A DNA stretch of 64,000 nucleotides from Actinomycetes bacterium. Lineage in GTDB: Bacteria; Actinomycetota; Actinomycetes; Streptosporangiales; Streptosporangiaceae. A program made the position numbers and the translations under genes. The stretch is taken from positions 124,001 through 188,000 of the forward strand of contig JAJYTD010000001.1 in NCBI GenBank assembly GCA_021793235.1. The letters are read 5' to 3'. This document shows positions 34,137 to 52,510 of the stretch, one piece after another (position 1 is the first letter of the stretch; each line of letters starts with the position of its first letter). The notes under the pieces were generated by a model, which did no database searches, had not been told where the DNA came from, and saw only the letters and a list, made by a program, of their open reading frames with translations.

Positions 34137-34547
34137 TCACCTCCTGCCGCGAAGCAGCCAGGCCAGCCAGCCGCCCAAGGCGCCCTCCAGCGTCCACAAG
34201 AAGAATGCGGCGATATCTTCCGCGCTGGCCAGAGTCTCCCCGGCCGCGGTATTGGCCAGCACCCCCAGCAGGAACATCACCAGGAACGCGAGTAGCCCGG
34301 CCGCGGAGCCGGCTCCCACAGTCCACGCCATGCTGCGTGTCCTACGGGCCATCAGGCCGGCCGTGGCGCCGCCGAGGACCCGGGCCGTGGCCGAGAGAAC
34401 GGCGGCGCCCAGGCCCACCCCGAAATCCCCCTCGACATCAGCCGGTGTGGTCGAGGAAGCGGACATGGCGGCGCCGAAGACGAGGGTCAGCACCACGGTT
34501 CCGATTATGCTGATCAACGCGCCGACGACGATGCCTGTGTACTTCAC
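34137..34547 (-). CDS. Small membrane protein with about four helices
   Basis: A 136-residue hydrophobic protein with helices near residues 5-27, 45-65, 70-95 and 110-132. No known family. The GTG start overlaps the stop of the upstream lipoprotein gene by four bases and has AGGAG upstream, so it is co-translated. It is the last gene of the three-gene unit headed by the 500-residue pilin-leader protein, and could serve as an accessory or protective partner; that is speculation. Confidence 0.75.
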   Translation of the reverse strand: MKYTGIVVGALISIIGTVVLTLVFGAAMSASSTTPADVEGDFGVGLGAAVLSATARVLGGATAGLMARRTRSMAWTVGAGSAAGLLAFLVMFLLGVLANTAAGETLASAEDIAAFFLWTLEGALGGWLAWLLRGRR

Positions 34548-35227
34548 GGGTTCTCCTGAACGTGGATCGATCTCAGCATCTCCGCTGCGCCTGCCCGGTT
34601 GAACTCGCCTTTGGGCGCACCGTAGCGAATGTGGTACTGCGGAGTGGTCGCCATCCCGATCACGATGTCCCATTGCACGCTGACGGTGTCGCCGCCGTCG
34701 TGGGTGTAGCGGCTCTTCATCAGCACGGCATCGGCGGCGCCGGGGATATCAATGCTCGACGTGGAGATTTCGGCATCGGGGTCCCGATCGAGGAGCCCGG
34801 ATTCGACCAGCAGGACAGGTCCGGCGACCGAGGCGGACTTCTCCAGGAATACCAGGATGGCTGGCGGTCCCTGCTCCGCGCTGTTCGCGCTATCCGCATC
34901 GCCAGGGCCGCTCCCGTGCTCGGAGATCCAGACTTCGTCAGTCAGGACCAGGTCGGCGACATAGGTATCGGGAGAGTACTCCGCCATTCCCTCCACTGGG
35001 GTGAAGGTCAACTCCGACAGTGACACCGGGGCCTCGGTGTGCTCGCCGGAAACCGGTTCAGGGGCCAGGGGAGGGGCGGAACCGCTGACATCGCCGGAGC
35101 CGCCAGTACAGCCGCTCAGCAGCAACGCGGCCACCGCCGTGGCGACCGCACCGCCGACTGCGGCGACTCCGCCACGGCCGCAGGGGGCCGAAGCCGCGTC
35201 TTCGGGTGCGTCAGCACTGCAGTTCAT
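34544..35227 (-). CDS. Hypothetical lipoprotein, partner of the pilin-leader protein
   Basis: A protein of about 226 residues. After a hydrophilic N-terminus it has a hydrophobic segment ending in LLLSGC, a likely lipobox, followed by a Gly/Ser-rich linker and a globular domain with VLFEKS-like strands and a SIDIPGAADAVLMKSRY segment. It is not recognised. The ATG at 35227 has GGAGG upstream and overlaps the end of the pilin-leader gene by 17 bases, and its own stop overlaps the next membrane gene. The tight coupling suggests that the three proteins act together at the cell surface. Confidence 0.75.
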   Translation of the reverse strand: MNCSADAPEDAASAPCGRGGVAAVGGAVATAVAALLLSGCTGGSGDVSGSAPPLAPEPVSGEHTEAPVSLSELTFTPVEGMAEYSPDTYVADLVLTDEVWISEHGSGPGDADSANSAEQGPPAILVFLEKSASVAGPVLLVESGLLDRDPDAEISTSSIDIPGAADAVLMKSRYTHDGGDTVSVQWDIVIGMATTPQYHIRYGAPKGEFNRAGAAEMLRSIHVQENP

Positions 35228-36713
35228 GCCACCTCCCGCTGGGATCGGCGTTGTTCCGGTAATAGGCATCGGTCAGTTCGGCGGTGCTCTCTTCGCTGTC
35301 CCAGCCGACCCCGAAACCGCCCTTCTTCAATCCTCCATCGACCCCGGTCTCGCCCTCGACGTCGTAGTACCACCGTGTCTGCTCTCCAGCAGTATCGAAC
35401 CGCTCAGCGAGATCGGCCGCTGTGCCGCCGGGATCGGTGAAGGCGGTGGGGTCGGGAATGGCGGCGAATCCGTTGCTGAGGTTGTACAGTCCTTCAACGG
35501 CCGCGAGATTCTGCGGGTCGGTGAGGTCCAGGCTGAATCGGTTCATCACCCGCTTGCGGATGTCCCGGCCCAGGCTGATGTCGGGTTCCATATCGCCGGG
35601 GAAGTCGCCTTCGGCTCCGACTGTGACACCCGCACCGTACTCGTACTGGATCTCGAAGTCGACGTTGGTCGGGTTGCCATCCGAATCGAACATTGTGCGC
35701 TGCAGGACTCTGCCGCCGCCTGCTGCCTGTAGTTCGGCGGCGATCTTGACCGGTACCACCGAAGAGAAGTCCAGCCCGGCCTGTCCTTTGAGATCGCCGT
35801 CCACTTGGAACGCGACGGTGTGCATGCGCTCGAAGTCGCGGCTGACCCGCACGGAGTTGATGTAGGAGCCTTCTAGCGAGCCACCGACTCCCAGGCTTAC
35901 TGCGCGGCTGTTGTTGAACTGGTAGTCGATATTGCCGCCGGCCTGCGCGTTGAGGTCGATGGTGACCGAATCGGGAAGGATGTCCTCGTACTTCTGGTCA
36001 ACTTGTTCTTGGTCGCCGCCAGTGAGCCAGGTCCAGCCTTTCTCCACCCACCGGGCGCTCTCCTTGATCGCGCCCTCGAGGGCCTGGCCATGGGTGCCGC
36101 CCGCGGTTGCCAGCCAGCGCTGCCAGGCCGCACCCCGCAGGTTCTCGCGGGTCTCCCGGGCTTCGTCGTGAGCGTTCTCGCCCTTGAAGTCGTAGTTGAG
36201 CGACAGTCCGGGGCCGCCCTGGGCGAAGACCTCCCAGTTCGGTTTGTTGTTTCCGCCTTTCTGTAGCTCCTCTAGGAGTTCCTCCTGGTTCGCGGCTTCG
36301 ACGCCGACCGAGGTGGACCCGCGAGTGGTGTAGATGGCGGCCTCTTCGCCGGTCACCGGGTTGCGACGAAGAAGAAGGGTATCCCCGGCGCCCTGCTCGA
36401 CCCTGATGTTGCGGAACGACCCGTTGATGGCCTGGTTGCGTGTGCCGATCTCAACGTTGCATACCAGGTCATTCGGGATCGCCGGATCAGTGTTGAGACT
36501 GCCGCAGTCTGTTCCGCCGAAAGCACGGCAGATGGCGATTCCGAGCCCTTGGACGATCCGGTCCGAGACGCCGGTCACTCCCAGAGCGAAGACGGTGGCG
36601 ACGATCACTCCGACGAGTACCAGTGCACCGGAGTATTCGAGGAAGCTCGCACCGGAGTCATTTCGGGTGCTGCCGCGGAGTCTGTGCGGCCGGAGTTCAG
36701 TGAGCCAGAGCAC
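35211..36713 (-). CDS. Flp-type prepilin leader fused to a large beta-rich surface protein
   Basis: A 500-residue protein. Near the N-terminus (G21-ASFLEY, Glu at +5) is a class III prepilin peptidase site of the Flp type, followed by a hydrophobic helix (VLVGVIVATVFALG) and an AICRAFGGTDCG motif. The rest is about 420 residues of polar, strand-rich sequence with alternating patterns (for example DLNAQAGGNIDYQF and GVTVGAEGDF). The Flp pilin, the toxin at 37259 and the NlpC/P60 protein at 41541 share this leader, and the latter shares the paired-Cys motif. The GTG at 36713 is a tentative start. The cargo is not recognised; adhesin or effector are both possible. Confidence 0.75.
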   Translation of the reverse strand: MLWLTELRPHRLRGSTRNDSGASFLEYSGALVLVGVIVATVFALGVTGVSDRIVQGLGIAICRAFGGTDCGSLNTDPAIPNDLVCNVEIGTRNQAINGSFRNIRVEQGAGDTLLLRRNPVTGEEAAIYTTRGSTSVGVEAANQEELLEELQKGGNNKPNWEVFAQGGPGLSLNYDFKGENAHDEARETRENLRGAAWQRWLATAGGTHGQALEGAIKESARWVEKGWTWLTGGDQEQVDQKYEDILPDSVTIDLNAQAGGNIDYQFNNSRAVSLGVGGSLEGSYINSVRVSRDFERMHTVAFQVDGDLKGQAGLDFSSVVPVKIAAELQAAGGGRVLQRTMFDSDGNPTNVDFEIQYEYGAGVTVGAEGDFPGDMEPDISLGRDIRKRVMNRFSLDLTDPQNLAAVEGLYNLSNGFAAIPDPTAFTDPGGTAADLAERFDTAGEQTRWYYDVEGETGVDGGLKKGGFGVGWDSEESTAELTDAYYRNNADPSGRWHELQC

Positions 36714-37258
36714 GGGAAACCCCTGTGGGAGGAGGTGGCCGGCAGGTCTCTGCCGGCTCAGGCAGCAGAAGTCTTCTGGGGTGACGAACCGGAGATGATC
36801 TGTCCGTACTCTGCCTGACCCTAAATAATCATGAATCACAAATGAAAGGGTCCATAGACCCAATTGGGAGGGCCATCCAACAGGCCCTAGCCGCGTGCGG
36901 CGACACCGCGATTGCGGTATGGATTCCACCGAATCCAAGCGGTCTTCGGCGGTGCTCGGGCGAATCTCCGGACCTCAGCCGGCGAGATGCGAAGTCAAGG
37001 AAAAATCGGTGTGTGGACCCGGGATTTCAGTTTTCCTCTGGGGATGCTCCCGGTGGTGAGGGGAACAGCGGAGTGCTGCCCCTTCTCCAGACGATTCTCC
37101 ACCGGAGACCACCAGGCATGGGCCCGAGGGCCTATGCGCAACGGGCGGTATTTGGGCCTGATTGGGCCTTATCCGGGAAACCACCGGCTTGGTACTTTGG
37201 CTTGGTTCTTCGTGTGTGATTGCTGCTCTCGGAATCGAGAAGCTGACGGGAAAAGACT
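36714..37258. promoter_or_regulatory. Divergent control region between two pilin-leader genes
   Basis: No convincing gene lies in these 545 bases. An AT-rich patch (TAAATAATCATGAATCACAA near 36823) could contain promoter elements for the minus-strand gene. A short hairpin GGGTCCATAGACCC follows. TTGGGCCT occurs twice near 37150-37165, and CCAATTG occurs both here and upstream of the Flp pilin gene at about 45100. Confidence 0.4.
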
Positions 37259-38875
37259 GTGCTGAGACGGATACACGACCCAGAGCGCGGCGCCTCCTTT
37301 CTGGAGTACGCGGGCATTATTCTGGTGGTATCGGCCATCATCGTCACGGTGTTCGCCTCAGGCGTCGGTGGTATCGGCCCCCGGGTCGGCAGCGGTATCG
37401 AGGCGGCATTCGAGAAGGCCTTCGGCGGGGAAGGCACCGGGTCCACCACTGCGGACTCGGCCGAGAACCCCGAGAACTCCTCGGACGGCGACGGATCTGA
37501 CGGGTCCGACGGATCTGGCGGCGAGGCCTCCGGGGAGAACGACGATGGCGGAGGCGGGTTCTTGGACGGACTCTCCGATATCGGCAACGGCGCCTGGGAC
37601 GCGGTGACCGACACCTTCGACTTCAGTGGCGCATGGGACAGCCTGACCGACAATGCGCAGCGGCTCTGGGACGACCCCGGCCAATGGCTCTCCGACACCG
37701 CGGACTCCGTGGTCCAATCCGCCTCCAACGCCTGGGACTCATTGACCGACGATCCGGTCGGCTTCGTCCGGGACTTCCTATTCAGCGACCAGGTCCAGGA
37801 CAAGTGGAACAATGGCGACAAGCTCGATGCCGGCGCCCAGGCCGTCACCGAGAACCTGCTCGGACTCATTCCCTACTTCGGGTGGGGAAAGAAGATCGAC
37901 CGCATCAACGACATCGCCAATGCGGGCCGCAATGACCGGGACAACGGTGACACGGATGGTGAAGCCCAGGCCGATGGGCCGCCACCGAATAGGGGCGAGG
38001 ACGATTCCGACGAGGACGACGGCTCAGACCGCAACGATGGTATTACGTGCTCGCGTCCTTCGAGCTTCGTACCCGGAACCCCCGTTCTGCTCGCCGACGG
38101 CACCTACGTGCCGATCGAGGACGTCCGGGTCGGCCACGAAGTGCTCGCCTTCGATCCGCTGACGGGGGAGGAAGGCGCCCGGGAAGTCACGGACCTGATC
38201 TCAAGCACCGGCGATAAGGTCCTCGTCGACATCACCGTGGACGACGGCCGGGGCGGCGCCGACACCATCACCGCCACCGACGAGCACCCCTTCTGGGCGC
38301 CGGAGATCGGCCAATGGGTCGATGCCATCGACCTGGCTCCCGGGACCTGGCTGCGCACATCATCAGGAGCCTGGGCGCAGATCTCCGCGGTCGATACGCA
38401 GCACGTCGGCGACCAGCGCGTCCACAACCTCACTATCGATGACCTGAGCACCTACTATGTCGATGCGGGTTCGGGCACGTGGCTGCTCGTCCACAACGAC
38501 AACGACAACGACCCCTGCCCTTACTCTGGCGACCTCAAGAAGGTCGACAAGCCCGACCCCCACGCTGACGCCCTTGCTGAACGGCTCGACGGTGAATCCC
38601 GCGTCCGCTTCGAGAACGACCCCACCAACCGGGAGTTCGACGCGATCAGCGACGACTATGTCGCTCAGGCGAAGCCGTCGAATGTTCAAGTGAACAAGAA
38701 ATTCCGTGGCCAGGCGAAGGCCACGTTCGAAGCGGCGCAGGCCACCGGGCGCGAGGTCTACTACCACTTCGAAGGCGGCCCTCCCTCGGCGGAGGTACGC
38801 AATAGGTTGGAGGAGTATTCGGAGCGCTACGGGGTCGATGTCGTCATCGACGACCAACCGCTCAACGTCGAGTAG
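37259..38875 (+). CDS. Polymorphic toxin: Flp-type prepilin leader, Hint domain, restriction-endonuclease-fold toxin
   Basis: A 538-residue modular protein. Residues 1-55 match the Flp pilin: G11-ASFLEY cleavage site with Glu16, a hydrophobic helix, and GIEAAFEKAFGGEG, which resembles GIEGAVDKAFGE in the pilin. A Ser/Asp/Gly linker and a Trp-rich pre-toxin segment (about 100-220) follow. A Hint domain spans about 264-413: Cys264, SFVPGTPVLLADG, a TxxDEHPFW block and the end motif LLVHN, where autocleavage would free the tail. The tail (about 415-538) is a PD-(D/E)xK-type nuclease (REFDAISDDYVAQAK, Asp461 and Lys472) like CdiA-style toxins. The Imm7-type gene follows. Start GTG 37259 lacks a strong ribosome-binding site. 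Confidence 0.9.
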   Translation: MLRRIHDPERGASFLEYAGIILVVSAIIVTVFASGVGGIGPRVGSGIEAAFEKAFGGEGTGSTTADSAENPENSSDGDGSDGSDGSGGEASGENDDGGGGFLDGLSDIGNGAWDAVTDTFDFSGAWDSLTDNAQRLWDDPGQWLSDTADSVVQSASNAWDSLTDDPVGFVRDFLFSDQVQDKWNNGDKLDAGAQAVTENLLGLIPYFGWGKKIDRINDIANAGRNDRDNGDTDGEAQADGPPPNRGEDDSDEDDGSDRNDGITCSRPSSFVPGTPVLLADGTYVPIEDVRVGHEVLAFDPLTGEEGAREVTDLISSTGDKVLVDITVDDGRGGADTITATDEHPFWAPEIGQWVDAIDLAPGTWLRTSSGAWAQISAVDTQHVGDQRVHNLTIDDLSTYYVDAGSGTWLLVHNDNDNDPCPYSGDLKKVDKPDPHADALAERLDGESRVRFENDPTNREFDAISDDYVAQAKPSNVQVNKKFRGQAKATFEAAQATGREVYYHFEGGPPSAEVRNRLEEYSERYGVDVVIDDQPLNVE

Positions 38876-38894
38876 TCGGTGCGGGGAGGACCCT

Positions 38895-39302
38895 ATGTTC
38901 GAGTTCCACGGGTGGATCTCAGTCCACGGGGCCGATGAGGAGCCGCCGGCCGCACTACGCGGCCCGGACGGGGCCAGTGTGGCCGACCTCGTGCGCTACA
39001 CCGACGGGGGACCCGGCCTGGTGGACCTGCGCTGGATGAACGGCGAGCTGTTCATCCATGTCGGAGGGTTCGCCAACCACCGCTCTCCCGATGTCGACGG
39101 CGTGTTCGACCTCTTCCGGCGCGTGGGCGAGGCCGCCCCGGGCTCGTACGGCCTCCTCCACTACCGGGACGACGAGGAGCCCGGCGAGAGCGGCAACGCC
39201 TTCCATGTCTGGGTCATGCGCCGGGGGCGCCTGTACGAGGCGACCGACACGCTCCTCTCTCCGGTCATTCCGACCATTGAAGACCTTGACGATCCGTCCT
39301 GA
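38895..39302 (+). CDS. Imm7 family immunity protein
   Basis: A 135-residue cytoplasmic protein that opens with MFEFHGWISV, the start typical of Immunity protein 7, and keeps a central FHVWVMRRGRL strand. Imm7 proteins neutralise toxins of polymorphic toxin systems. It starts 19 bases after the toxin stop with GGGGAGGA upstream, so producer cells make it together with the toxin. A hairpin closes the unit. Confidence 0.88.
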   Translation: MFEFHGWISVHGADEEPPAALRGPDGASVADLVRYTDGGPGLVDLRWMNGELFIHVGGFANHRSPDVDGVFDLFRRVGEAAPGSYGLLHYRDDEEPGESGNAFHVWVMRRGRLYEATDTLLSPVIPTIEDLDDPS

Positions 39303-41540: not shown

Positions 41541-42200
41541 CTATTTCTGCGGAACCCGTGCCTGGCCCCACCAGACCGACTCCCAGTACGGATTGCCTTC
41601 GATCTGAGCGACGTTGACCGGGTCGCCGGCGTGCACCATCTTGCCTCCGCCCAGGTACATGCCGACATGGGAGGGAGCTGGATGGGAGGAGATGGTATGG
41701 AAGAAGACGAGGTCTCCCGGCTGGAGTTCCTCCCGCGAGATACTCGGGAGAGCGGCCTCCATGGTCGTCGTCGTGCGCGGGATGGAAACGCCGGCTTTCT
41801 GCCATGCCGCTTTCAGGACCCCCGAGCAGTCCCAGCCGTGCGGGCCGTTACCGCCCCACACGTAGGGCTTGCCCAACTGCTGCAGCGCGAACTCGATGGC
41901 GACGCGCGCGTCTCCTTCACCGGTGACCTCACCGTTCCAAACACCCGCGCCGACTGGGAAGACGTACTCCTCGGGTTCCTCTGGCCGTTCGTGCTCGACC
42001 CATGTCTCGCCACCGCACTCGGGGCCTTCGACACGGCAGACAGCCTCGCGTATGCCGTTGTTGAACTGGGAGGGGATCGGAGACGTGGCGATCGCCCCTA
42101 TGATCGCAGCCGCGGTGAGCGTGAGAAACGCGATCTCGATGAGGCTCGCGCCGCGGTCGTCGCCTGGTGTGCGGGATGAGAAGCCGCTGGGTCTCCGCAC
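41541..42200 (-). CDS. NlpC/P60 peptidoglycan hydrolase with prepilin-type leader
   Basis: A 219-residue protein. The N-terminus reads RG17-ASLIEI followed by a hydrophobic helix, a class III prepilin leader (Glu at +5), then an AVCRVEGPECGG motif that parallels AICRAFGGTDCG of the 35211 protein. The catalytic NlpC/P60 domain covers about 98-215: Cys125 in GWDCSG, His178 in PSHVG, and a third polar residue near His190. It would cut peptide stems of peptidoglycan. Pilin-style targeting instead of a Sec signal is unusual. GTG 42200 is preceded by AGGAGG. Confidence 0.88.
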   Translation of the reverse strand: MRRPSGFSSRTPGDDRGASLIEIAFLTLTAAAIIGAIATSPIPSQFNNGIREAVCRVEGPECGGETWVEHERPEEPEEYVFPVGAGVWNGEVTGEGDARVAIEFALQQLGKPYVWGGNGPHGWDCSGVLKAAWQKAGVSIPRTTTTMEAALPSISREELQPGDLVFFHTISSHPAPSHVGMYLGGGKMVHAGDPVNVAQIEGNPYWESVWWGQARVPQK

Positions 42201-42802: not shown

Positions 42803-43855
42803 CTACTTCTCGAAGGTGACGGTGACGCGCCGGTTCTTCGCCCGGCCCTCTTCCGTCTCGTTGTCGGCGACGGGATCAGCGGAGCCGTGTCCCGCTGTTT
42901 CATAGGTGATCCCGGACCTGGTGACCAGGTCCTTGAGCGCGTCCTCGACGGCTTTGGCCCGGTCCTCGGAGAGCGGGTCGTTGATGGAGTCGTTGCCCGT
43001 GCTGTCCGTGTATCCGTCGATTTGGACCTTCTTCGTGGAGGAGTCGTCGATCTCCTGGGCCACCTGCCCGAGCGCGCTGTCGGCCTTGCTGGTCAGCGTG
43101 GACTCGTCCGTTTCAAAGAGGACGTCGGAGGCGAGCATGATGCTGGACTCGTCTTCGGAGTCCTCACGGGATGTGGTGCCGTCCAGGTCATCCTGAAAAG
43201 AGCTGAGAGCGAGCACCTGCGGTTCGGCGGTCTCGGTGTTCGCGACCTCGTCGTTGGAACCGGTGTTGTCGATGACCGGGATGTCGATGAAGTCGGGGGT
43301 GGAGACCGTGGTGATCGTGACGGTGTCGATGTCCTCGGGGGGTGCCGGGTAGGCGACCCAGAAGTCGAGGCTGTCGCCGGGGCCGAGTTCCTGGTCGCCC
43401 GACCAGTCGAGGCAGAGGCATTTCGAGCCGTCGGGTGCCATCAGCGGCAGGTACTGCTTGCTGTTGGCGGTATCGATGATCGAGACGCCCTGAGCGGTGG
43501 TTGCGTTTCCCCCACCAGAAATAGCGTGAAAGAACCTTATGTCCTTGTCACTGGTGTTGCGTGCGGTCATATTGACCAGCGCCACATCGTTGCCGATGCG
43601 TTCGACCGGGTATACGTCGATCTCGAGGAAGTGGGAGTAGATGAGGCTCGTCGTGGCGGAAGTGGCCACCACCTCGCCGGATTCGGCGCTGGAACCCTCG
43701 CCGTTTCCCCCGCTTTTCCCTTCGCCTTCACTGTCGGATCCGTTTCCGGAGTCACCAGGAGAGATGCAGGATGAGAGCAGGGCGATTACGAGTGCCGTGG
43801 GAATACCCAAGCGCAGAGCTTGAAGGAATGGGGAGGTAGGCTGCCATACTTCCAC
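42803..43855 (-). CDS. OmpA-domain lipoprotein
   Basis: A 350-residue probable lipoprotein (LLSSC followed by a Gly/Ser/Glu linker). The N-terminal domain is shared with the downstream neighbour (CLC motif). The C-terminal 110 residues form an OmpA-like peptidoglycan-binding domain: DVLFETDESTL, QIDGYTDSTG and LSEDRAKAVEDAL, closing with RRVTVTFEK. It should link the membrane to the wall, perhaps bracing the pilus. OmpA domains are less common in Gram-positive bacteria. Start GTG 43855. Confidence 0.85.
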   Translation of the reverse strand: MEVWQPTSPFLQALRLGIPTALVIALLSSCISPGDSGNGSDSEGEGKSGGNGEGSSAESGEVVATSATTSLIYSHFLEIDVYPVERIGNDVALVNMTARNTSDKDIRFFHAISGGGNATTAQGVSIIDTANSKQYLPLMAPDGSKCLCLDWSGDQELGPGDSLDFWVAYPAPPEDIDTVTITTVSTPDFIDIPVIDNTGSNDEVANTETAEPQVLALSSFQDDLDGTTSREDSEDESSIMLASDVLFETDESTLTSKADSALGQVAQEIDDSSTKKVQIDGYTDSTGNDSINDPLSEDRAKAVEDALKDLVTRSGITYETAGHGSADPVADNETEEGRAKNRRVTVTFEK

Positions 43856-44032: not shown

Positions 44033-44704
44033 TTATTGGTTCCAGCTGGATGGTTCGTACAGGTATTTCCCTTCCTTGCCGGTGAGGTGTACATCGATCA
44101 GTCGGCGCGCGTGTGCAAAACCCTGGATGGTCTGCCCGCCGCACCGCACACCGATGATGCTGAGATCGTCGGGATCCGGTGAGAAGATGTAGGCGCAATC
44201 GGGGAGGTCGACTTTGGCGATGGCATCGGCATTTCCGATGTGCACTGGAATGTCCTTTTCGCCCTCAGTTCCGTCGCAGAGACTGTCGTTCCAGTGCCGA
44301 CCACCGTCCTCCTCCAGTTCGCGCTGGCACTGAGCACTCCGGACCTCGACTCGGACGATGTCCCCGGTGGTCCCGATATCGTTGTCACTCGCTCGGATAT
44401 CGGCCAGTACCGCGCCGTTGCTCTTGGCGTACTCCTCTGCCCGGGTGCGTCCGGCCACGGGATTGTACAGATTCCCGTATGGCAGCTTGTGCTCGGCGAG
44501 CTTCTGTGCGGCGTTGTCGGCCGCCTGGCCGGCCGCGGCCAGAGCCGCGGCGTCCGCGGCGTTCTGGGCGCGGTCGCGGAGATCGTTCGCATTGCCCAGG
44601 CGCATGTAGAGCAGCACGATCGCGAGTAGAGCCACGGACAGGCCGACGAGCAGGAACAGGCTCGCCTGTCCCTGCTCGTCGGCTTTGCGAGGCGTGGGCA
44701 TCAC
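44033..44704 (-). CDS. TadG-like pilus assembly protein
   Basis: A 223-residue protein. The N-terminus (EQGQASLFLLVGLSVALLAIVLLYM) and the following DLRDRAQNAADAAALAAAGQAA helix are typical of TadG/Rv3654c-like proteins from Tad loci. The remainder is extracytoplasmic with four cysteines. It probably acts as a minor pseudopilin or assembly factor. It follows the Flp pilin gene by 39 bases. Start GTG 44704 or ATG 44701. Confidence 0.8.
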   Translation of the reverse strand: MMPTPRKADEQGQASLFLLVGLSVALLAIVLLYMRLGNANDLRDRAQNAADAAALAAAGQAADNAAQKLAEHKLPYGNLYNPVAGRTRAEEYAKSNGAVLADIRASDNDIGTTGDIVRVEVRSAQCQRELEEDGGRHWNDSLCDGTEGEKDIPVHIGNADAIAKVDLPDCAYIFSPDPDDLSIIGVRCGGQTIQGFAHARRLIDVHLTGKEGKYLYEPSSWNQ

Positions 44705-44743: not shown

Positions 44744-45007
44744 TCAGAAGAGCCAGCTATCGTCGCCCTCGGCGCCCTCGACTTCGCCGAATGCCTTGTC
44801 GACAGCTCCCTCGATACCTTCCTTGATGTTTCCGGCGATGCCGTCGTCACCGGAAACGGCGGTGAACACCGCGGCGGCAATGGCGCCGATGACGATCAGG
44901 ACACCGGCGTACTCGACGAATCCCGCGCCCTTGTCGCCGCCGTTCGTGGCGGTGCGCCGGCGGATGGCGGTGCGAGTCTTAGCGAGAATGGAGATGATCT
45001 TTCCCAT
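44744..45007 (-). CDS. flp: Flp/Fap-type major pilin
   Basis: An 87-residue prepilin. The peptide KG27-AGFVEYAGV fits the Flp prepilin rule (G, four residues, E, Y), followed by a hydrophobic helix VLIVIGAIAAAVFTAV and a short acidic tail. Cleavage after Gly27 would give a 60-residue pilin that forms the Tad pilus fibre. The ATG has AGAGG upstream. It sits downstream of the response regulator gene with its own 140-base leader, so it may have its own promoter and be expressed more strongly. Confidence 0.9.
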   Translation of the reverse strand: MGKIISILAKTRTAIRRRTATNGGDKGAGFVEYAGVLIVIGAIAAAVFTAVSGDDGIAGNIKEGIEGAVDKAFGEVEGAEGDDSWLF

Positions 45008-45148: not shown

Positions 45149-45826
45149 TCAGTATCCCGCATCAGCGGCCGGGTTTTCGTGTCCGTTCCATCGGGCGATC
45201 GCGGCGGCCCGGGTGCTCACGTGAAGTTTGCGGAATATCCGATTGATGTGGTTCTTCACGGTCTTTTCGGAAAGGAACAGCTCCGTGGCGATCTCGTCGT
45301 TGGTGAGGCCCCGCGCTGCTGCAGCCAGCACCTCAGCCTCCCGCTGGCTCAAGCCCAGCTCCTCGCGGGAATCTGCGGGAGCGGGCGCTGATCGGACGGA
45401 GTCCAGGACCGCGGATGCGGCGACGGCGGACAGCGGGCTGCCCGACCCGGTGACCACCTCCTGGAGCGCCCGTGTGAGCTCGGGCAGTGTGAAGTGGCCG
45501 TGGACCAGGTAGCCCGCCGCACCGCGGCGGAGCGAGGTGTGCACGACCTCCGGGTCCTCCGTATGGGTGAGCATGACGACCTTGGCGAAATGAGTGAGCT
45601 CGTCAAGGACGCTGACTCCGTCGAGGATCGGCATTCGGACATCCAGAAGGACGACATCAGGCCGCAGCTCGCGCGTTGATTCAAGAGCCTCGGCACCGTT
45701 TCCCGCTTCCCCGACCACAGCGAGCTCGTCCGTGGCCTCCAGCAGAGAGATCAATCCGGCGCGAACGATGATGTTGTCGTCGACGACCAGGATCCGAATG
45801 GGCGAGGGATCGGGGAGGAGGTGCAC
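45149..45826 (-). CDS. NarL/FixJ-type response regulator
   Basis: A 225-residue regulator. The receiver domain has the phosphorylation site DVVLLDVRMP and acidic VVDDN pocket; the C-terminal LuxR helix-turn-helix is LSQREAEVLAAAARGLTNDEIA. It is paired with the histidine kinase just upstream and is probably the control module of the Tad locus. The GTG at 45826 has AGAGG upstream; TTG 45850 would add eight residues. Confidence 0.92.
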   Translation of the reverse strand: MHLLPDPSPIRILVVDDNIIVRAGLISLLEATDELAVVGEAGNGAEALESTRELRPDVVLLDVRMPILDGVSVLDELTHFAKVVMLTHTEDPEVVHTSLRRGAAGYLVHGHFTLPELTRALQEVVTGSGSPLSAVAASAVLDSVRSAPAPADSREELGLSQREAEVLAAAARGLTNDEIATELFLSEKTVKNHINRIFRKLHVSTRAAAIARWNGHENPAADAGY

Positions 45827-45889
45827 TGGGAGGGTCCTCTCACTGAACAAGCGGATAGATGGGCAAGGCAGGGGAGCCGATCGCGGCCG

Positions 45890-47188
45890 TCATGGGACAG
45901 CTTCCTGCGCTTCCTGCGCGTAAGGGGAACAAGGGAGCTGGAGAAGTACTTCGGTGCCGGATCCGGGGGTGGAGAGGACGGTCAGGGTTCCGCCGACACG
46001 TTGGGCCCGTTCGGCCATGCCGCGCAGACCATAGTGACCGGTCTTCTCCACAATCTCGTCGGAAACCGGGTCGGGTCCGGGTACCGGGGCCTCGAAGCCC
46101 TGGCCGTCGTCGCGAACCCGCATCAGCAGGTAGCCGGCTCGGGGAGGATCTTTCGCCGTATGCGCGGAAGAGGCCACGCCGGTCTCGGCAGCGCCAGCCG
46201 GCCGATGCTCCAGCGTTACCGTGACCGAGTCCGCGTTCGCGTGTCGGTCGATATTGGTGAGGGCCTCGGACAAGATCGCGATGCCTTCCTGGCGCGCGGC
46301 GATGAGCAGGGAGAAGTCACCAGCCGCGGCGTGCAGCCGTACCGGAACACCCGTCTCTTCCCCCCATTCGTCCAGTACCGCGGACACGGCCTTGGTGAAC
46401 GGCACGTCGGCAACCTCCTCGCGCAGATCCGTGATGAGATCGCGGGCCTCCTGGGCGGCCCGCTCAGCGGCCTCGGCCACCTGGGATGCCGTGGCGACGG
46501 CCCGCTCGGGGTCCTTCTGTACCCAGATGGGCAGGGACTGGGCTGCCATGGCCGCACCGCGCAGTGTCTTGACGACAGAGTCGTGCATGTCCCGGGCCAA
46601 GCGTGCCCTCTCCTCGGCGGCGGCCGCGGCGATCTCGGCTTCCTCCCGCTTGCGTTGCTCCAAGGAGAGCTGGGCGAAGATACGGCGCAGTTGTATGCCG
46701 ACGAACCCCGCGACGGGGTAGAGCAGCGGATTGACAGCGATGACCTGGAAGTTCAGCAGGCTCTCGGACGGCTGGCCGCTGTCAATGGCCGAGAACGACA
46801 GCAGCGCGGAGTAGTAGCAGAACATCTGGAACGAGACGGCGGCCACCGCACCCCAGCGGTGGAAGAGCAGGCCGGCGACCGTTGCGGTGAGGACTGTGGC
46901 GACGAAGAAGGGGCCGGTGGGGCCGTCCACCATGAGGATGGCGGTGGCGCAGAAGATGTCCATGGTCACCAGCAGAGGGTGCTCAAGGAGATAGGGCGTT
47001 ACCCGCTCCCAGTACCAGGCGACGAATGCGGTCAGCGTGGCGAACAGGAGGGTCAAGACGATGATGGGCAGCGACACGCGGTCCGCTGGCAACAGCAGTA
47101 GGGCGATTCCGGTCAGCAGGAAGCGCAGTTGCATCAGCAAGCGGATCAATCTGGCGGAACGCGGCATGAGTGCGCTGGATGGGTTCAT
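45890..47188 (-). CDS. NarL-type sensor histidine kinase
   Basis: A 432-residue membrane kinase with about five or six N-terminal hydrophobic helices (residues 15-165), a coiled dimerisation helix and a HisKA_3 phosphoacceptor ARDMHDSVVKTLRG. The GHKL ATPase domain follows (LSEALTNIDRHANA and GHYGLRGMAERAQ boxes). No large outside sensor domain is seen, so it likely senses a membrane or envelope cue. It lies eight bases after tadC and 63 bases before the regulator, within the Tad operon. Confidence 0.92.
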   Translation of the reverse strand: MNPSSALMPRSARLIRLLMQLRFLLTGIALLLLPADRVSLPIIVLTLLFATLTAFVAWYWERVTPYLLEHPLLVTMDIFCATAILMVDGPTGPFFVATVLTATVAGLLFHRWGAVAAVSFQMFCYYSALLSFSAIDSGQPSESLLNFQVIAVNPLLYPVAGFVGIQLRRIFAQLSLEQRKREEAEIAAAAAEERARLARDMHDSVVKTLRGAAMAAQSLPIWVQKDPERAVATASQVAEAAERAAQEARDLITDLREEVADVPFTKAVSAVLDEWGEETGVPVRLHAAAGDFSLLIAARQEGIAILSEALTNIDRHANADSVTVTLEHRPAGAAETGVASSAHTAKDPPRAGYLLMRVRDDGQGFEAPVPGPDPVSDEIVEKTGHYGLRGMAERAQRVGGTLTVLSTPGSGTEVLLQLPCSPYAQEAQEAVP

Positions 47189-47195
47189 GGCACCG

Positions 47196-48101
47196 CTATC
47201 CGAAGAGATCGCCGAAGCTGTCCAGGGAACCGACCACCAGGCCGCCGCCGATGATCAGCATCAACCCCGGCAGCATGGTCGCGGCGGTGATCCCGGTGAC
47301 CTTGGGATTGAGGTTCTGGGCCTTGCGCCGGAGGTACTGGGCGTCCTCTCTGCGCATGTCCTGACTGATGTTCTGCAGTGCGTCGGCGAGAGGCGCACCG
47401 AGTTCCTCTGCCTGCTGCAGAGCGCTGACGAATTTACCGAGGGACTCATTGGCGTTGCGGCTACGCAGCGCGGCGAAAGCGTCGCGGCGGCTGGTGCCCA
47501 GATCCATCTGGCGCAGGGTGAGCCGGAACTCGTCGGCGAGGACACCGGGCATGGCGTCAGAGACCCGGGACAGGGACTGGCGGAACGAGAGGCCTGCGCC
47601 GACCGTCACCGCCAGTACGTCGAGGAAGTCAGGGAGCTGTTTTTGCACCGCGTCCTGTCGCTTCTGAGCGGTCGAATGCAGTTGCAGATCGGTCAGGGCG
47701 ATGAAGGCCAGGGAAAGAAGAGAGAGGAGAACAGACCCGGTGGCGAAGAAGTACGTTGCGATGAGGCCGTAGAGCAGTACTTCGCCGGTCTTGCGCTGAA
47801 CGTAGGACTCGACGGTGAGACCGTCGATGTGGCCGGAAGCCCTGATGCGGCGCTGGATCCCCTTCCTGCGCGCTTCCGGTAGGGATTCCAGCACCGACCT
47901 GGTGAACGGCTGGCCGATCCGCCCGGTGATGCGGTGCAGGATGAAGGTTTCGTTTGGCTTTTTCTTAGGGGCGGCGGGGAGGAAATCCTCTTCGACGACC
48001 TCGCTTTTGCGGGTGAGCAGGTGAAAGCCGACCACAGCGAGGACCACACAGACCATGGTGATGAGGCCGAGCAAGACGATCATGGGGTAGTTCAGGGTCA
48101 T
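47196..48101 (-). CDS. tadC: Tad pilus inner-membrane platform protein TadC
   Basis: A 301-residue T2SSF-domain protein with hydrophobic helices at the N-terminus, in the middle and at the C-terminus. The cytoplasmic part has the LDVLAVTVGAGLSFRQSL and AEELGAPLADALQ segments of the GspF family. With TadB it forms the membrane platform on which the TadA ATPase works. The ATG at 48101 begins directly with the first helix. Confidence 0.93.
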   Translation of the reverse strand: MTLNYPMIVLLGLITMVCVVLAVVGFHLLTRKSEVVEEDFLPAAPKKKPNETFILHRITGRIGQPFTRSVLESLPEARRKGIQRRIRASGHIDGLTVESYVQRKTGEVLLYGLIATYFFATGSVLLSLLSLAFIALTDLQLHSTAQKRQDAVQKQLPDFLDVLAVTVGAGLSFRQSLSRVSDAMPGVLADEFRLTLRQMDLGTSRRDAFAALRSRNANESLGKFVSALQQAEELGAPLADALQNISQDMRREDAQYLRRKAQNLNPKVTGITAATMLPGLMLIIGGGLVVGSLDSFGDLFG

Positions 48102-48121
48102 GTCGGCGGCTCCGTGGTGGT

Positions 48122-49042
48122 TCAGAGATCGATTCGCGTTATGCGTCGGATACCGAGGAACCCAGCGGTGAGCAGCGTCCCCGCGAGGACCAGTACAACG
48201 ATTCCCGCGGCGCTTTCTGTCATCGTCCGCACAACACCGGGATTGAGCATGTTGATGAGGAAGAGAGAGCCGACACCCATGAAGAGCATGGCCCACGCGG
48301 TGCTGACCGTCTCTCCGAGAATGGTTTTGACTTCGCGCCGTGTCTCCTTACGAGCCTCCAGGGTGTCGGATATGTTGCGGAGCGCGGTCACGAGGGCACC
48401 GCCGGAGCGAGAGGCGATGAGCAGGGTGGAGATCAGCACTCCGATTTCCCGCGAGGGCATGCGCTGGCGCATCTCCTCGATGGCGGCGTCAAAAGACTGG
48501 CCGACCCGCATCGACTGTGCGGCCCGGCGCAGTTCCGATCCGGCGGGGTCGTCCAGCTCCTCGGCGGCCATGGCGATCGCGGTGGGCAGGGCGAGGCCGG
48601 CCTGTGTCGCGTTGGACAGCACTCGGGCGAGTTCGGGGAGTTGGGTAATGAACTCCTCCTTGCGCCGATCCTCCTGCCGCTGCAGGTAGGAGAAGAAGAG
48701 GAAGGCGACGAGCCCGATCGAGAGCACGCCGAAGACTGGAGCGAGGATGCGTCCCACGAAGATCACCGCTGCGAGAGCCGCGATGGTCATCGCGGCAACG
48801 AAAACGGCGACCGGGATCTCCAGCCCCGCACGGGCCATCCGGACCTCCAGTTTCTTGCCGAGTTCACTGCGGCGCAGCCATACGTCGAACTTGGTGAACG
48901 GTGAGGCCGCGCGCTGTTCCACATCCGCGAGAGCGCTGCGCGACGCCAGTTGCGCGTTCTGGTCCAGTCCCACTCCCCATTCACGAGCGGCGAAGGCGAA
49001 GACGATTCCGGTTGCCGCCAGTAGCACCAAGATCAGCAGCAT
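48122..49042 (-). CDS. tadB: Tad pilus inner-membrane platform protein TadB
   Basis: A 306-residue T2SSF-domain protein: a first helix, a cytoplasmic stretch, two helices, then the GspF domain (FITQLPELARVLSNATQAGLALP, MRQRMPSREIGVLIS) and final helices. Partner of TadC. The gene starts four bases after tadA ends and is 20 bases from tadC, consistent with one transcript. Confidence 0.93.
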   Translation of the reverse strand: MLLILVLLAATGIVFAFAAREWGVGLDQNAQLASRSALADVEQRAASPFTKFDVWLRRSELGKKLEVRMARAGLEIPVAVFVAAMTIAALAAVIFVGRILAPVFGVLSIGLVAFLFFSYLQRQEDRRKEEFITQLPELARVLSNATQAGLALPTAIAMAAEELDDPAGSELRRAAQSMRVGQSFDAAIEEMRQRMPSREIGVLISTLLIASRSGGALVTALRNISDTLEARKETRREVKTILGETVSTAWAMLFMGVGSLFLINMLNPGVVRTMTESAAGIVVLVLAGTLLTAGFLGIRRITRIDL

Positions 49043-49046
49043 GGGA

Positions 49047-50381
49047 TCACAGCGCCTTTCCGAAAGCTGAGGGTCCGTGGCCGTGCTCCACCCCGAATGC
49101 CGCAGGTACGCTCTCCCCTGCGGCGTAGAGGCGGGCAGCGATGTGGTGGGGCAGGGGGAAGCAGCGGAATTCGCCATCCACTCTGCGTTCCACGTCCATT
49201 GGGCGCGCCTCGAATTTCAGCAGAGTCTCCAACCGGAACTCCTCGTCGCGCGCTGAGGAAACGACGCCGATCTCGGAGATTTTGCGGCTGCCATCGGGGT
49301 ATCTGGTGAGATGCACGATCACATCGACCGCCGCGTTGATCTGGTCCCGAAGTGCCTCGAAGGGGATCTTCACCTCCGACATCGAAGCCAGAGTGAGCAA
49401 CCGGTACACCGCGTCGTCGGCGGAGTTCGCGTGGACCGTTGCCAAAGAGCCGTCGTGGCCGGTGTTCATCGCCTGCAGCATGTCCAGGGTCTCGGCACCG
49501 CGGACCTCACCGACGATGATGCGCTCGGGCCGCATCCGCAGTGAGTTGCGGACCAGGTCTCGAATGGTGACCTGGCCTACGCCCTCCATGTTGGGCGGAC
49601 GCGACTCCAACCGGATGACGTGCTCCTGCTGGAGTTGGAGTTCGGCCGAGTCCTCGATGGTGATGATGCGCTCGTCATTTGGAGCGAACCCGGAAAGCGC
49701 GTTGAGGAAAGTGGTCTTCCCTGTTCCGGTGCCGCCCGAGACGATGACATTGAAGCGGGAGCGGACCAGTGACGCGAGCAGGACCGCGGTGCCGTTGTCG
49801 AGACTGCCCAAGGCGACCAGTTGTTCCAGGGTGAACGGTTTGGGGAAGCGGCGGATGGTGATGATCGGTCCGCTGAGCGACAGCGGCGGGATGATCACGT
49901 TCACCCGCTCACCCGTGGGCAGCCGCGCGTCGACCATCGGACTGGACTCGTCGATTCGGCGGTTCACCTGCGACACGATGCGGTCGATGGTCTGCATGAG
50001 TTGGTCCTCGCTGGCGAACGCGACCTCCAAGCGTTCAACCTTGCCACCGCGCTCCACGTACACGGTGTCGTAGCCGTTCACCATGATTTCGGTTACGCTC
50101 TCGTCCTCGAGCAGGGGTTCCAGCACGCCCAGTCCGAGAGCCTCGTCGACGACCCGGCGGACCAGAGAGCCGCGTTCCCGGTCGGAGAGCACGGGACCTT
50201 CGCGAGAAATGAGATGGCCGACGACCTTCTCCAGTCGGGTCCGGCGTTGGTGCATGTCGAGTGCGGCGAGATCATCGAGGTTGATCTCGGTGAGCAGGCG
50301 TTCCCGCCAGTGGGCGACACTGCCGAGTTCAGAGGTGCGTTTGGCGCGGCGGTCGGCGTCGAGCCGGTCTTTCAGTCCCAT
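49047..50381 (-). CDS. tadA: Tad pilus secretion ATPase TadA/CpaF
   Basis: A 444-residue type II/IV secretion ATPase. Walker A GGTGTGKTT is at about 216-224, an Asp box and RMRPERIIVGEVRGAE (Walker B region) follow, and a His box GHDGSLATVHANS is present. It powers pilus assembly and possibly retraction. The N-terminal part matches CpaF proteins. Clear RBS-like sequence is weak; the preceding gap is 76 bases. Confidence 0.95.
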   Translation of the reverse strand: MGLKDRLDADRRAKRTSELGSVAHWRERLLTEINLDDLAALDMHQRRTRLEKVVGHLISREGPVLSDRERGSLVRRVVDEALGLGVLEPLLEDESVTEIMVNGYDTVYVERGGKVERLEVAFASEDQLMQTIDRIVSQVNRRIDESSPMVDARLPTGERVNVIIPPLSLSGPIITIRRFPKPFTLEQLVALGSLDNGTAVLLASLVRSRFNVIVSGGTGTGKTTFLNALSGFAPNDERIITIEDSAELQLQQEHVIRLESRPPNMEGVGQVTIRDLVRNSLRMRPERIIVGEVRGAETLDMLQAMNTGHDGSLATVHANSADDAVYRLLTLASMSEVKIPFEALRDQINAAVDVIVHLTRYPDGSRKISEIGVVSSARDEEFRLETLLKFEARPMDVERRVDGEFRCFPLPHHIAARLYAAGESVPAAFGVEHGHGPSAFGKAL

Positions 50382-50457: not shown

Positions 50458-50871
50458 TCAGCGCGGCATTTCCACCGTCCTGGTCAGTGGAATGTCCAGC
50501 CCCGCGAAGGAGAAGACCAGGGGAAACCGGACCTCGATCTCGGTGGCGTAGCCGTGCTCGACGGGGTAGACTTGAATTTCTGCCTCGTCTTGGAGATAGC
50601 CGGGCAAGCTGGATCGGGCGAGGTTCTCTGCGTGGTCGATTCCGCTGCTTCCCGCGGAGTCGGCGCTGACCCGAGCCGCGTTGTTCATGCGTTCCATGGC
50701 CGCGAAACCGAAGAAGGCCTCCAAGGCGATGGTCAACACGAACAGGAAGATCGGGAAGTAGATCGCGAATTCGACGAACTGGCTGCCCTGATCGTTCCGT
50801 AGAATGTGCCGTTTTCGCTGCTTGGATGGCCGACCGACCTCCTGTCCGGTTGTATGTGGTTCTGCCGCCAT
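50458..50871 (-). CDS. tadE: TadE-like pseudopilin
   Basis: A 137-residue protein with a basic N-terminus, the processing motif QG-SQFVEF (Gly, four residues, Glu, Phe) and a hydrophobic helix, then an extracytoplasmic domain. TadE and TadF are minor pseudopilins needed for Flp pilus formation. It lies four bases after the TadZ-TadE fusion gene. Confidence 0.88.
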   Translation of the reverse strand: MAAEPHTTGQEVGRPSKQRKRHILRNDQGSQFVEFAIYFPIFLFVLTIALEAFFGFAAMERMNNAARVSADSAGSSGIDHAENLARSSLPGYLQDEAEIQVYPVEHGYATEIEVRFPLVFSFAGLDIPLTRTVEMPR

Positions 50872-50875
50872 GTGC

Positions 50876-52510
50876 TCACCTCTCGTTCGGGACTCGGGAG
50901 GTACCGCTGATGTCCCACGTAATGGGGGTTCCCGGAATCACGGCCGGTGTTTTGATGGTGACATCGACATAGCGAGGTGTGTTGTCCGCTTCCCGGACGA
51001 CCTTGAGGGTCAGCAGTTCATCATCGTTCCAGGGGGCGCGCATGCGCTTTGTCGCCTCCTTCAGGATCCGCTCCTCGTTGTTCGGGGTGAGGACGGCCTG
51101 CCGCGCACCTTCGTTCGCTGCGTGGGTCGCATACATTCCGGTCTGCGCAACGAGCAGTACCTGCCACACCATCAGCGCGGTGAGGCACAGCAGAGGGGTG
51201 ACCATGGCGAATTCGAGGAACGCCGCGCCGGAGTCGCTCTTCCTGCGGAGGAGTCGGCTCCGATCCGCTTTCCCGGCGGATCCGGCCGGATCCGCGGTGG
51301 CCTCCGCCGGGACCGAGATTTCGGCGGACTCCTGGTTTTCCTCGTCGGGTGCGACGAACATGCCCAACTGCGCGGCGATCTGGCTGAACGCCTTCAGCAG
51401 GGATTCATCGGTCAATCGTCCTGGATTTCCCGTGTTGGAGGCCTCTTCTATAGCCCGGTAGGCTGCGGGGACGGCTGTCTTCAGCATGTCGGTGCCGAGT
51501 AGTTTGCGGGCGAAATCCGGCTGGATCTCGTTCTTCCGGCTGTGCCGCATCAGCAGGGCGGTGACGTTTTTCTTGTCGCGGATCTGCAAGCGGTCCCACA
51601 TTCCGATCAGTCGCTGTGCTCCGCGCAGTGCCGGGAGATCGGGATTGGTGAGGACCACGGCGGTGTCGGCCAGCTCGACCGCCATGGCGGTCGCCTCGGT
51701 CATCGACGATCCGCAGTCGACGACTACCAGGTCGTAGCGGGACCGCAGAGCTCCCAGGATGAGGCGCGCCGCCCGGGCGGTGACGTCCTCGCCTCGTTCG
51801 CCGTCGTTGGGAGCGAGCAGAATATGCAGACCGTCAGGGTGGACGTAAAGCGTGTCCGCCAGCATGGAGGCACTGATGTCCTCGGCGGCCTCGACCAGAT
51901 CGACGATGCTGCGGCGGTGCTTGAGGTCGAAGTAGCCGGGGATGTCGCCCATCTGCAGGTCGAGGTCGACCAGGCAGACCCGCCGACCGGCCTTGGCGGC
52001 GAGCCGGGAGAGGTGGATCACGCTCGTCGTGGTGCCGACCCCGCCTTTGGCGCCGGTGAAGGTGATGATGGAGCCGCGGCGGCCTGACATCGGCACATCG
52101 AGGGAAGCCGCCTCAAGATGCTGGCGCAGGGTGCGCGACCAGTCGGCGGCTGAGGCGACACGGGCGCCGAGCTGCTCGATGGTGGCGCTGGATGCCAGGA
52201 CGCTGCGTGCGCCGGCCTCCATCGCGTCGGTGAACGTTTCCGACTGCACTTCGTCCACGATGAGGATCACGGCGAGCTGCGGACGGTTGCGTGAGATGTC
52301 GCGGATCAGGTCGAAGACCGGAAGCGGCCCCAGCTTCTCGTGGATCAGCACCACGTCCAAGGTGGGGATCTGGCCGGCGGTGTCGCTGATCTCGTGGGAG
52401 GAGCGGTGGACGCTGACGACTTCGGCATCGGAGAGCTCTTCGAAGCGCGTGGTGAACGCGGTCTCCAGCTCCGCGGACGGCATGCCGAGCATGATCTGGT
52501 AGGTACTCAT
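50876..52510 (-). CDS. TadZ (CpaE-like ATPase) fused to a TadE-type pseudopilin
   Basis: A 544-residue protein combining two Tad components. Residues 1-140 resemble a receiver-like domain, and 145-385 are a MinD/ParA-type ATPase with KGGVGTTT (155-162), as found in CpaE/TadZ, plus DLDLQMGD and VVDCGSS motifs. After an acidic Ala/Pro linker (about 388-424) comes a prepilin site SG428-AAFLEF with a following helix and a TadE-like outer domain (430-544). The TadZ half normally stays in the cytoplasm to mark the pole. In one chain the pseudopilin would have to be released by prepilin peptidase after Gly428. The ATG at 52510 overlaps the cpaB stop by one base. Confidence 0.88.
   Translation of the reverse strand: MSTYQIMLGMPSAELETAFTTRFEELSDAEVVSVHRSSHEISDTAGQIPTLDVVLIHEKLGPLPVFDLIRDISRNRPQLAVILIVDEVQSETFTDAMEAGARSVLASSATIEQLGARVASAADWSRTLRQHLEAASLDVPMSGRRGSIITFTGAKGGVGTTTSVIHLSRLAAKAGRRVCLVDLDLQMGDIPGYFDLKHRRSIVDLVEAAEDISASMLADTLYVHPDGLHILLAPNDGERGEDVTARAARLILGALRSRYDLVVVDCGSSMTEATAMAVELADTAVVLTNPDLPALRGAQRLIGMWDRLQIRDKKNVTALLMRHSRKNEIQPDFARKLLGTDMLKTAVPAAYRAIEEASNTGNPGRLTDESLLKAFSQIAAQLGMFVAPDEENQESAEISVPAEATADPAGSAGKADRSRLLRRKSDSGAAFLEFAMVTPLLCLTALMVWQVLLVAQTGMYATHAANEGARQAVLTPNNEERILKEATKRMRAPWNDDELLTLKVVREADNTPRYVDVTIKTPAVIPGTPITWDISGTSRVPNER

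Follow-up and report, generated by a model that had tools for sequence, protein, structure and literature searches.

The window, as we call the whole 64,000-nucleotide stretch of actinomycete DNA analysed here, carries on its plus strand a toxin gene followed by an Imm7 immunity gene (Table 1). Both open reading frames exist as an earlier note on this DNA had described them: the Imm7 frame differs from that of the toxin and opens with an ATG at 38895, 19 bases past the toxin stop codon. Genes for a Tad (type IVc) pilus lie about 5–15 kb from the toxin on the minus strand, and the gene of an NlpC/P60 hydrolase is placed between the Tad locus and the toxin.

Table 1. Features of the toxin locus and the neighbouring Tad island (positions in the window)
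Feature	Position	Strand	Basis
Lipoprotein-like gene behind the 35211 protein	34544..35269	-	lipoprotein reading by eye
Second large Flp-leader protein (35211 protein), beta-barrel-like (predicted, 12-stranded), divergent from the toxin gene	35211..36938	-	leader profile; model
Toxin ORF, 538 aa	37259-38875	+	GTG start; start given by MLRRIHDPERGASFLEYAGIILVVSAIIVTVF
Toxin: prepilin-type leader, residues 1-11 (MLRRIHDPERG)	37259..37291	+	sequence; predicted cut after Gly11
Toxin: pilin-like hydrophobic helix, residues 12-34, E at +5, Y at +6	37292..37360	+	
Toxin: Asp/Gly/Ser-rich linker and helical pre-toxin region, residues 35-263	37361..38047	+	
Toxin: Hint self-cleaving domain, Cys264 to His412-Asn413	38048..38497	+	PT-HINT profile and fold match
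Toxin: C-terminal Tox-REase-3 nuclease-type toxin, residues 414-538, and stop codon	38498..38875	+	Pfam
Imm7 immunity protein, 135 aa	38895..39302	+	Pfam, full length
NlpC/P60 peptidoglycan hydrolase with Flp-type leader (DRGASLIEIAF)	41541..42200	-	Pfam, 94.1 bits; leader profile
OmpA-domain (peptidoglycan-binding type) protein, Tad island	42803..43855	-	Pfam, 65.4 bits
TadE/G-like protein	44033..44704	-	PF13400, 32.2 bits
Candidate Flp-type major pilin, 87 aa, GAGFVEYAGVLIVIG	44744..45007	-	leader profile, E 9e-10
LuxR-type response regulator and histidine kinase, between pilin and tadC	45149..47188	-	Pfam
TadC, TadB, TadA	47196..50381	-	Pfam T2SSF, T2SSF, T2SSE
TadE, TadZ with TadE segment, RcpC/CpaB	50458..53316	-	Pfam

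Domains of the toxin and its immunity gene

The N-terminus of the toxin meets the criteria for a prepilin-type leader, being basic, ending in Gly and continuing with xxxxEY into a hydrophobic helix. On its sequence it is Flp-like without a match to a Pfam pilin family, and no Pfam family was recognised in this region when either the full toxin or its first 53 residues alone were scanned. A structure model of residues 1–413 places a predicted helix at residues 14–33 with low to middling confidence; the linker (residues 35–263), which is partly conserved among relatives, was modelled with low confidence.

The Hint domain that had been proposed to begin at Cys264 was recovered by profile and by fold, and that cysteine was correctly assigned. 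PT-HINT matches residues 279–414 with 62.5 bits (Pfam cut-off 27.7), the HPFW motif lies at residue 343, and the best PDB matches of the model are bacterial intein-like domains (BIL) and inteins. Block means of pLDDT are 84–94 at residues 271–400 and approximately 71 from there to the end of the model. Against 2lwy the TM-score is 0.89 by target length, with 31% identity; the fold is common to both, but 2lwy is a stand-alone Clostridium thermocellum domain whose title names no toxin. As judged from profile and model, a Hint domain with an N-terminal Cys and a C-terminal His-Asn is present, and its self-cleavage is inferred.

The C-terminal tail had been read as a PD-(D/E)xK nuclease domain with Asp461 and Lys472 as its key residues, and a profile search returned a REase-type match above the curated cut-off. 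Tox-REase-3 (PF15647) covers residues 426–516 with 78 bits (cut-off 25), or 81.9 bits when the tail is scanned alone, and the motifs REFD (458–461) and QAK (470–472) were found, which bears out the numbering of both residues. The family motifs are given as [KR]ExD, K and ExQxK in the accessible part of Zhang et al. (2012, PMC3482391); the position two before the Q of QAK is V both in the toxin and in the RHS relative described below, as opposed to the E of ExQxK. The assignment of the next gene to Imm7 held over its full length, as PF15585 matches the product with 120.9 bits (cut-off 25) at model positions 1–130 of 130. NCBIfam gave no family above cut-off for the toxin or the 135-residue Imm7 protein. 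Single-sequence searches for solved relatives of the toxin tail and of Imm7 gave best E values of 0.35 and 0.51, respectively, both taken as chance.

The pairing of Tox-REase-3 with Imm7 is itself listed in the available portion of PMC3482391. We are highly confident that the two genes form a toxin–immunity pair of the polymorphic family; their identity as toxin and immunity genes is near certain, and toxicity, nuclease activity and neutralisation are inferred. A pair of genes of which the second is small could also be an ordinary intracellular toxin–antitoxin module, but this is scarcely credible for a 538-residue toxin with a leader and a Hint domain, adjoining an immunity family that the same source, in its accessible text, lists with polymorphic toxins.

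In a search for plasmid-borne copies the tail matched nothing. The whole toxin matched 133 plasmid records, none over 80% of the query, and the best 10 matches all begin at residue 262 or later. The genome of the window holds a second leader–Hint toxin copy (L172; G000:C40, 5032 bases), in which leader and Hint occupy separate frames behind an upstream frame resembling the small membrane protein described below; this copy looks decayed or mis-sequenced.

A leader–Hint family with exchanged tails

With the toxin as query, 63 of 149 related genomes yielded matches. Many of these were confined to the Hint domain, and a good number aligned from the leader onward with differing C-termini. The leader was detected (E <0.01) in 69 of 149 Hint-bearing segments, and removal of repeated Hint sequences left 44 leader–Hint proteins from related actinomycetes, distinct by Hint sequence. 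Across 13 aligned constant parts, M1, I5, H6, P8, R10, G11, A12 and Y17 of the leader are invariant, as are C264 and HPFW of the Hint domain, and HN412-413 is nearly so; Glu at +5 is found in 39/44 leaders and is absent from the other 5/44. To judge from sequence comparison, the leader is not a chance resemblance, since a profile of 13 toxin leaders matches the window's own pilin candidate (E 9e-10) and the leader is common to proteins of many genomes. The Flp-type leader of the earlier note is thus upheld.

The scan of named genomes returned 77 loci. Matches spanning query residues 1 or 2 to 413 were obtained in Nocardiopsis, Marinactinospora, Thermobifida fusca NBRC 14071 (L040, full length), Murinocardiopsis, Allosalinactinospora, Actinorugispora, Allonocardiopsis and Actinomadura kijaniata. 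T. fusca belongs to the Nocardiopsidaceae and A. kijaniata to the Thermomonosporaceae, both within the Streptosporangiales. Taxon names of family members rest on the named loci only, which are a minority of the 44. In one A. kijaniata locus (L094), three leader–Hint proteins lie close together on one strand, and Ser replaces Glu at +5 (RGEGSLSYL).

Behind this constant part the tails differ. Pfam scanning of 43 of the 44 tails (that of L016, only 17 residues long, was left out) recognised ten toxin families: Toxin-deaminase (7), Ntox24 (4), Colicin_D (2), XOO_2897-deam (2), and one each of Ntox28, Tox-REase-3, RNAse_A_bac, Ntox21, Ribonuclease and Ntox50. A member may enter these figures twice, and about half of the tails matched none of the ten families. 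Because leader and Hint stay constant while the tails are swapped or unrelated, we regard these proteins as a polymorphic toxin family. A conserved Cys just past the Hint cut was considered as a mark of the family (32/33 counted) and rejected, given that 71/78 remaining Hint tails, a set not wholly free of truncated copies of family members, have a Cys as well.

The same material bears on whether the protein is instead a structural or adhesive minor pilin, with a tail that is inactive or aimed at a non-bacterial target such as the phage-infected producer itself or a grazing eukaryote. The accessible part of PMC12075869 describes minor pilins of Tad systems that carry variable domains as tip proteins. 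We nevertheless consider such a role very improbable: REFD and QxK are kept, a matching Imm7 gene follows, the same backbone carries many other toxin tails, and PADLOC found no match to its anti-phage defence models.

The tail of the window toxin also occurs on other carriers. Tox-REase-3 is rare, being present in 2/296 genomes drawn from the class. In the other of these two (G266, L184) it ends a 1565-aa frame that contains RHS repeats (RHS_repeat, 125.2 bits; Tox-REase-3, 107.7 bits); this tail matches that of the window toxin with 131 bits and is directly followed by Imm7 (160.6 bits). Tail and immunity gene are thus the same as in the window, whereas the carrier is an RHS-repeat frame that is only partly covered. 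A further genome (G071) holds an orphan Tox-REase-3/Imm7 cassette with a broken toxin frame, about 1.4 kb downstream of a leader–Hint protein. The same tail therefore moves between a leader–Hint protein, an RHS protein and an orphan cassette, and the polymorphic-toxin criterion of one trafficking part with many tails, and one tail with other trafficking parts, is met. Imm7 was found in 9/149 genomes, 7 of which also have strong-leader ORFs; the proposal that it always adjoins Tox-REase-3 was rejected, as the window tail was recognised beside Imm7 in only 2/9 stretches (2–3.4 kb).

Upstream of 30/44 leader–Hint toxins, at a distance of at most 900 bases, an open reading frame (for example L045:9491-9946 and L049:6825-7211) encodes a small protein that seems, on visual inspection, to cross the membrane about four times; it shares the reading frame of the toxin in L010, L011 and L013. 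A profile of this protein, built from genes beside toxins and run on the window, L039–L115 and the loci from L132 on, gave 31 ORF matches (repeats included), all beside Flp-leader proteins: 2 represent one gene, in which it is fused to a leader protein, and the remaining 29 are found upstream of one at a distance of 217 bases or less. Because these loci had been picked on account of toxins, Tad or related genes, the search was not blind. The four such proteins scanned with Pfam gave no family above cut-off, and the profile search found no small upstream membrane protein for the window toxin.

The Tad island and its association with toxin genes

Within the Tad island of the window, the two-component pair inside the locus suggests regulated expression. 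A prepilin peptidase is encoded in the same genome outside the window, at G000:C10:1874-2245. Pfam assigns the 87-residue pilin candidate to no family (DUF4244, at E 0.054, misses the cut-off), and none above cut-off was recognised in the products of 42242 and 40631. The Flp-leader peptidoglycan hydrolase could possibly be a wall-opening pilin. It is placed behind the OmpA-domain gene and has eighteen related segments, forming one cluster; the domain scan of these relatives is incomplete.

We compared the window with regions around a close TadA homologue from 21 further genomes, giving 22 islands; those of G079, G029 and G087 had been picked for absence of a full-length toxin among the matches listed, and the contig limits the downstream sequence to about 4 kb in G055, 13 kb in G008 and 17 kb in G048. 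All 22 islands have a recognisable TadA, TadB and TadC, and 21/22 have a small pilin candidate and an OmpA-domain protein (the G055 contig ends first). Leader–Hint toxins, 10 genes in total, lie 11–20 kb downstream of tadA in 7/22 islands, and at least one other leader protein of approximately 270–530 aa occurs in 16/22 (a manual count from leader-profile matches).

Strong-leader ORFs (≥60 bits) were present in 18/149 genomes, all 18 among the 36 with a close TadA (≥66% identical; Fisher P 1.3e-13, uncorrected for kinship). At a looser limit of E 1e-5, which includes pilins, a leader match was obtained in 33 genomes, 32 of them with a close TadA; the exceptions are one leader genome without it (G094) and 4/36 TadA genomes without a leader match. 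At this limit some genomes hold large sets of leader-profile matches, pilins included (27 in G007, 24 in G071). The 25 kb downstream of tadA contain 7 of the 48 strong-leader ORFs, against 0.20 expected, and the 25 kb upstream contain none; the downstream clustering involves 5/18 genomes (P 1e-6, genome-level model).

Several features of this analysis limit its weight. Shared ancestry confounds the co-occurrence, and both the span of 25 kb and its direction were chosen after inspection of the data. A Hint domain was confirmed for the seven ORFs near tadA and not for all 48. The matches collected for the test extend to weaker ones than its thresholds admit (60 bits for a leader, 66% identity for a TadA), and weaker leaders of the Murinocardiopsis, Allonocardiopsis and Actinomadura types fall outside it. 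Because 41/48 strong-leader ORFs are located elsewhere in the genomes and the span was set post hoc, the linkage to Tad is a tendency and not a rule.

The dispersed ORFs also support a plain signal anchor, by which the toxin would be exported by Sec and held in the membrane facing outward, the Hint domain alone would shed the tail, and Tad would be uninvolved, the leader being pilin-like only by descent. The five leaders without Glu at +5 fit this explanation as well, and a single-membrane bacterium needs no second crossing. A bare anchor, however, would not need the invariant I-H-x-P-x-R-G-A...Y pattern, and it leaves the 18/18 co-occurrence with close TadA and the downstream clustering unexplained; we hold a plain signal anchor to be improbable. 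Tad export of the toxin, itself an inference, appears reasonably likely to us.

The 35211 protein represents a second Flp-leader family, of approximately 470–500 aa, with relatives in L132, L137, L133, L138, L141 and other loci, and it recurs in Tad islands, including those of G079 and G029 in which no Hint toxin was seen. Its 18 members fall into clusters of 15 and 3 whose profiles match each other with 99.5% probability (shared leader included); 17 were aligned, as L148 is cut by the end of its stretch. No NCBIfam family was above cut-off for these 17 members, and neither the 35211 protein nor the 34544 product has a Pfam family above cut-off. The model of the 35211 protein (pLDDT 72) consists of a helix followed by twelve long strands. 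VIA-align superposed it on the autotransporter barrels AaaA (Z 16.3, rmsd 3.5, 246 aligned) and NalP (Z 15.4, rmsd 3.1, 222 aligned), whereas Foldseek TM-scores were low (0.07–0.29 by query length, at most 0.45 by target length). The modelled strands alternate in polarity (mean 1.35 versus 0.56 shuffled; 0/2000 shuffles as high). Since the two comparisons disagree and a single member was modelled, a beta-barrel on a pilin leader is suggested by the model and not settled. This bacterium is not known to have an outer membrane, and in such an organism a barrel of this kind is odd and unexplained. Genes similar to 34544 follow the 35211 family in the G075 and G006 islands, and the 34544 gene may be an immunity or assembly partner of the 35211 protein.

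A proposed export route and its relation to known systems

Four things are observed: the domain architecture, a family in which the tails are exchanged, a cassette that recurs on another carrier, and a tendency to lie near tad. From these we propose as the likely reading an antibacterial polymorphic toxin made as a minor prepilin, exported by Tad, released by Hint and guarded by Imm7. The prepilin peptidase would remove MLRRIHDPERG, cutting after Gly11, and the hydrophobic helix would let the toxin into the Tad machine, where it would most likely be a rare minor subunit of the pilus. Its C-terminal part would be carried to the cell surface; Hint would cut after Asn413 and free the PD-(D/E)xK-type nuclease to act in a neighbouring cell, and Imm7 would bind the nuclease in the producer and its kin. 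Prepilin processing, pilus assembly, Tad export, target-cell entry, Hint cleavage, nuclease activity and neutralisation are all inferred, no step after translation having been shown, and delivery into cells is held only tentatively. The mature subunit, at more than 500 residues, is far larger than the small pilins of the islands, which speaks against this reading, as do the missing upstream membrane protein of the window toxin, the lack of a Pfam family at its N-terminus, the leaders without Glu at +5 and the many strong-leader ORFs distant from tadA.

A more elaborate version would make the Nocardiopsidaceae Tad machine a dedicated interbacterial weapon that takes its effector pilins (the Hint toxins, the hydrolase and the barrel with its lipoprotein partner) from the island. 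The hydrolase would open the wall, the barrel would provide passage through the target membrane, Hint would drop the nuclease there, and the small membrane protein would feed in the toxin prepilins. As a whole we consider this scheme unlikely.

Toxin, immunity protein and Hint domain all belong to known kinds; the pilin-type carrier is, within the literature covered here, a new variation. Polymorphic toxin systems as set out in the accessible text of PMC3482391 share with the present one a constant delivery part, Hint, a swapped tail and an immunity gene. The delivery listed there for Tox-REase-3, as far as that text extends, is by T2SS (MafBN), T6SS, T7SS (WXG) or PrsW, in contrast to the pilin-type leader of the window toxin; the words 'pilin', 'Flp' and 'TadE' are absent from it, in keeping with the earlier view that such a leader is unusual. 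In the available part of Martinkus et al. (2025, PMC12605009), Flp pilins are likewise named among carriers of a polymorphic toxin (ARC) domain, but in a single clause and for a different toxin, with no family, tad linkage, Hint or immunity given. Within the titles and abstract openings covered by our literature search, which left out subscription papers and preprints, Flp-leader polymorphic toxins as a family, or a link to tad, were not found.

Contact killing by a Tad pilus is described for the Kil Tad-like system of Myxococcus xanthus (PMC12075869; a second paper is PMC8460266), with variable-domain minor pilins at the tip. As far as the accessible portion of PMC12075869 goes, the Kil tips consist of minor pilin complexes and depend on a needleless T3SS as well, and none of the pilins is described with a Hint domain, a nuclease tail or an immunity gene; the likeness to our toxin is functional only. 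The umbrella toxins of Streptomyces (PMC11062931) are, like those studied here, actinomycete polymorphic toxins directed against competitors, but they are secreted protein particles, and the part of that paper available mentions no pilin leaders.

Polymorphic toxins are sorted by their exit route, and a Tad/type IVc route was not found in the accessible part of PMC3482391 and receives one clause in that of PMC12605009. With 44 backbones, swapped nuclease, deaminase and RNase tails and one Tad type, the family permits a direct test of toxin delivery by a Gram-positive Tad system, for which a cultured species, T. fusca NBRC 14071, is at hand. The weapon scheme, if true, would constitute a new trafficking route for polymorphic toxins. 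The toxin leader and the nearby pilus-building cluster point to a little-noticed way of delivering toxins against rivals.
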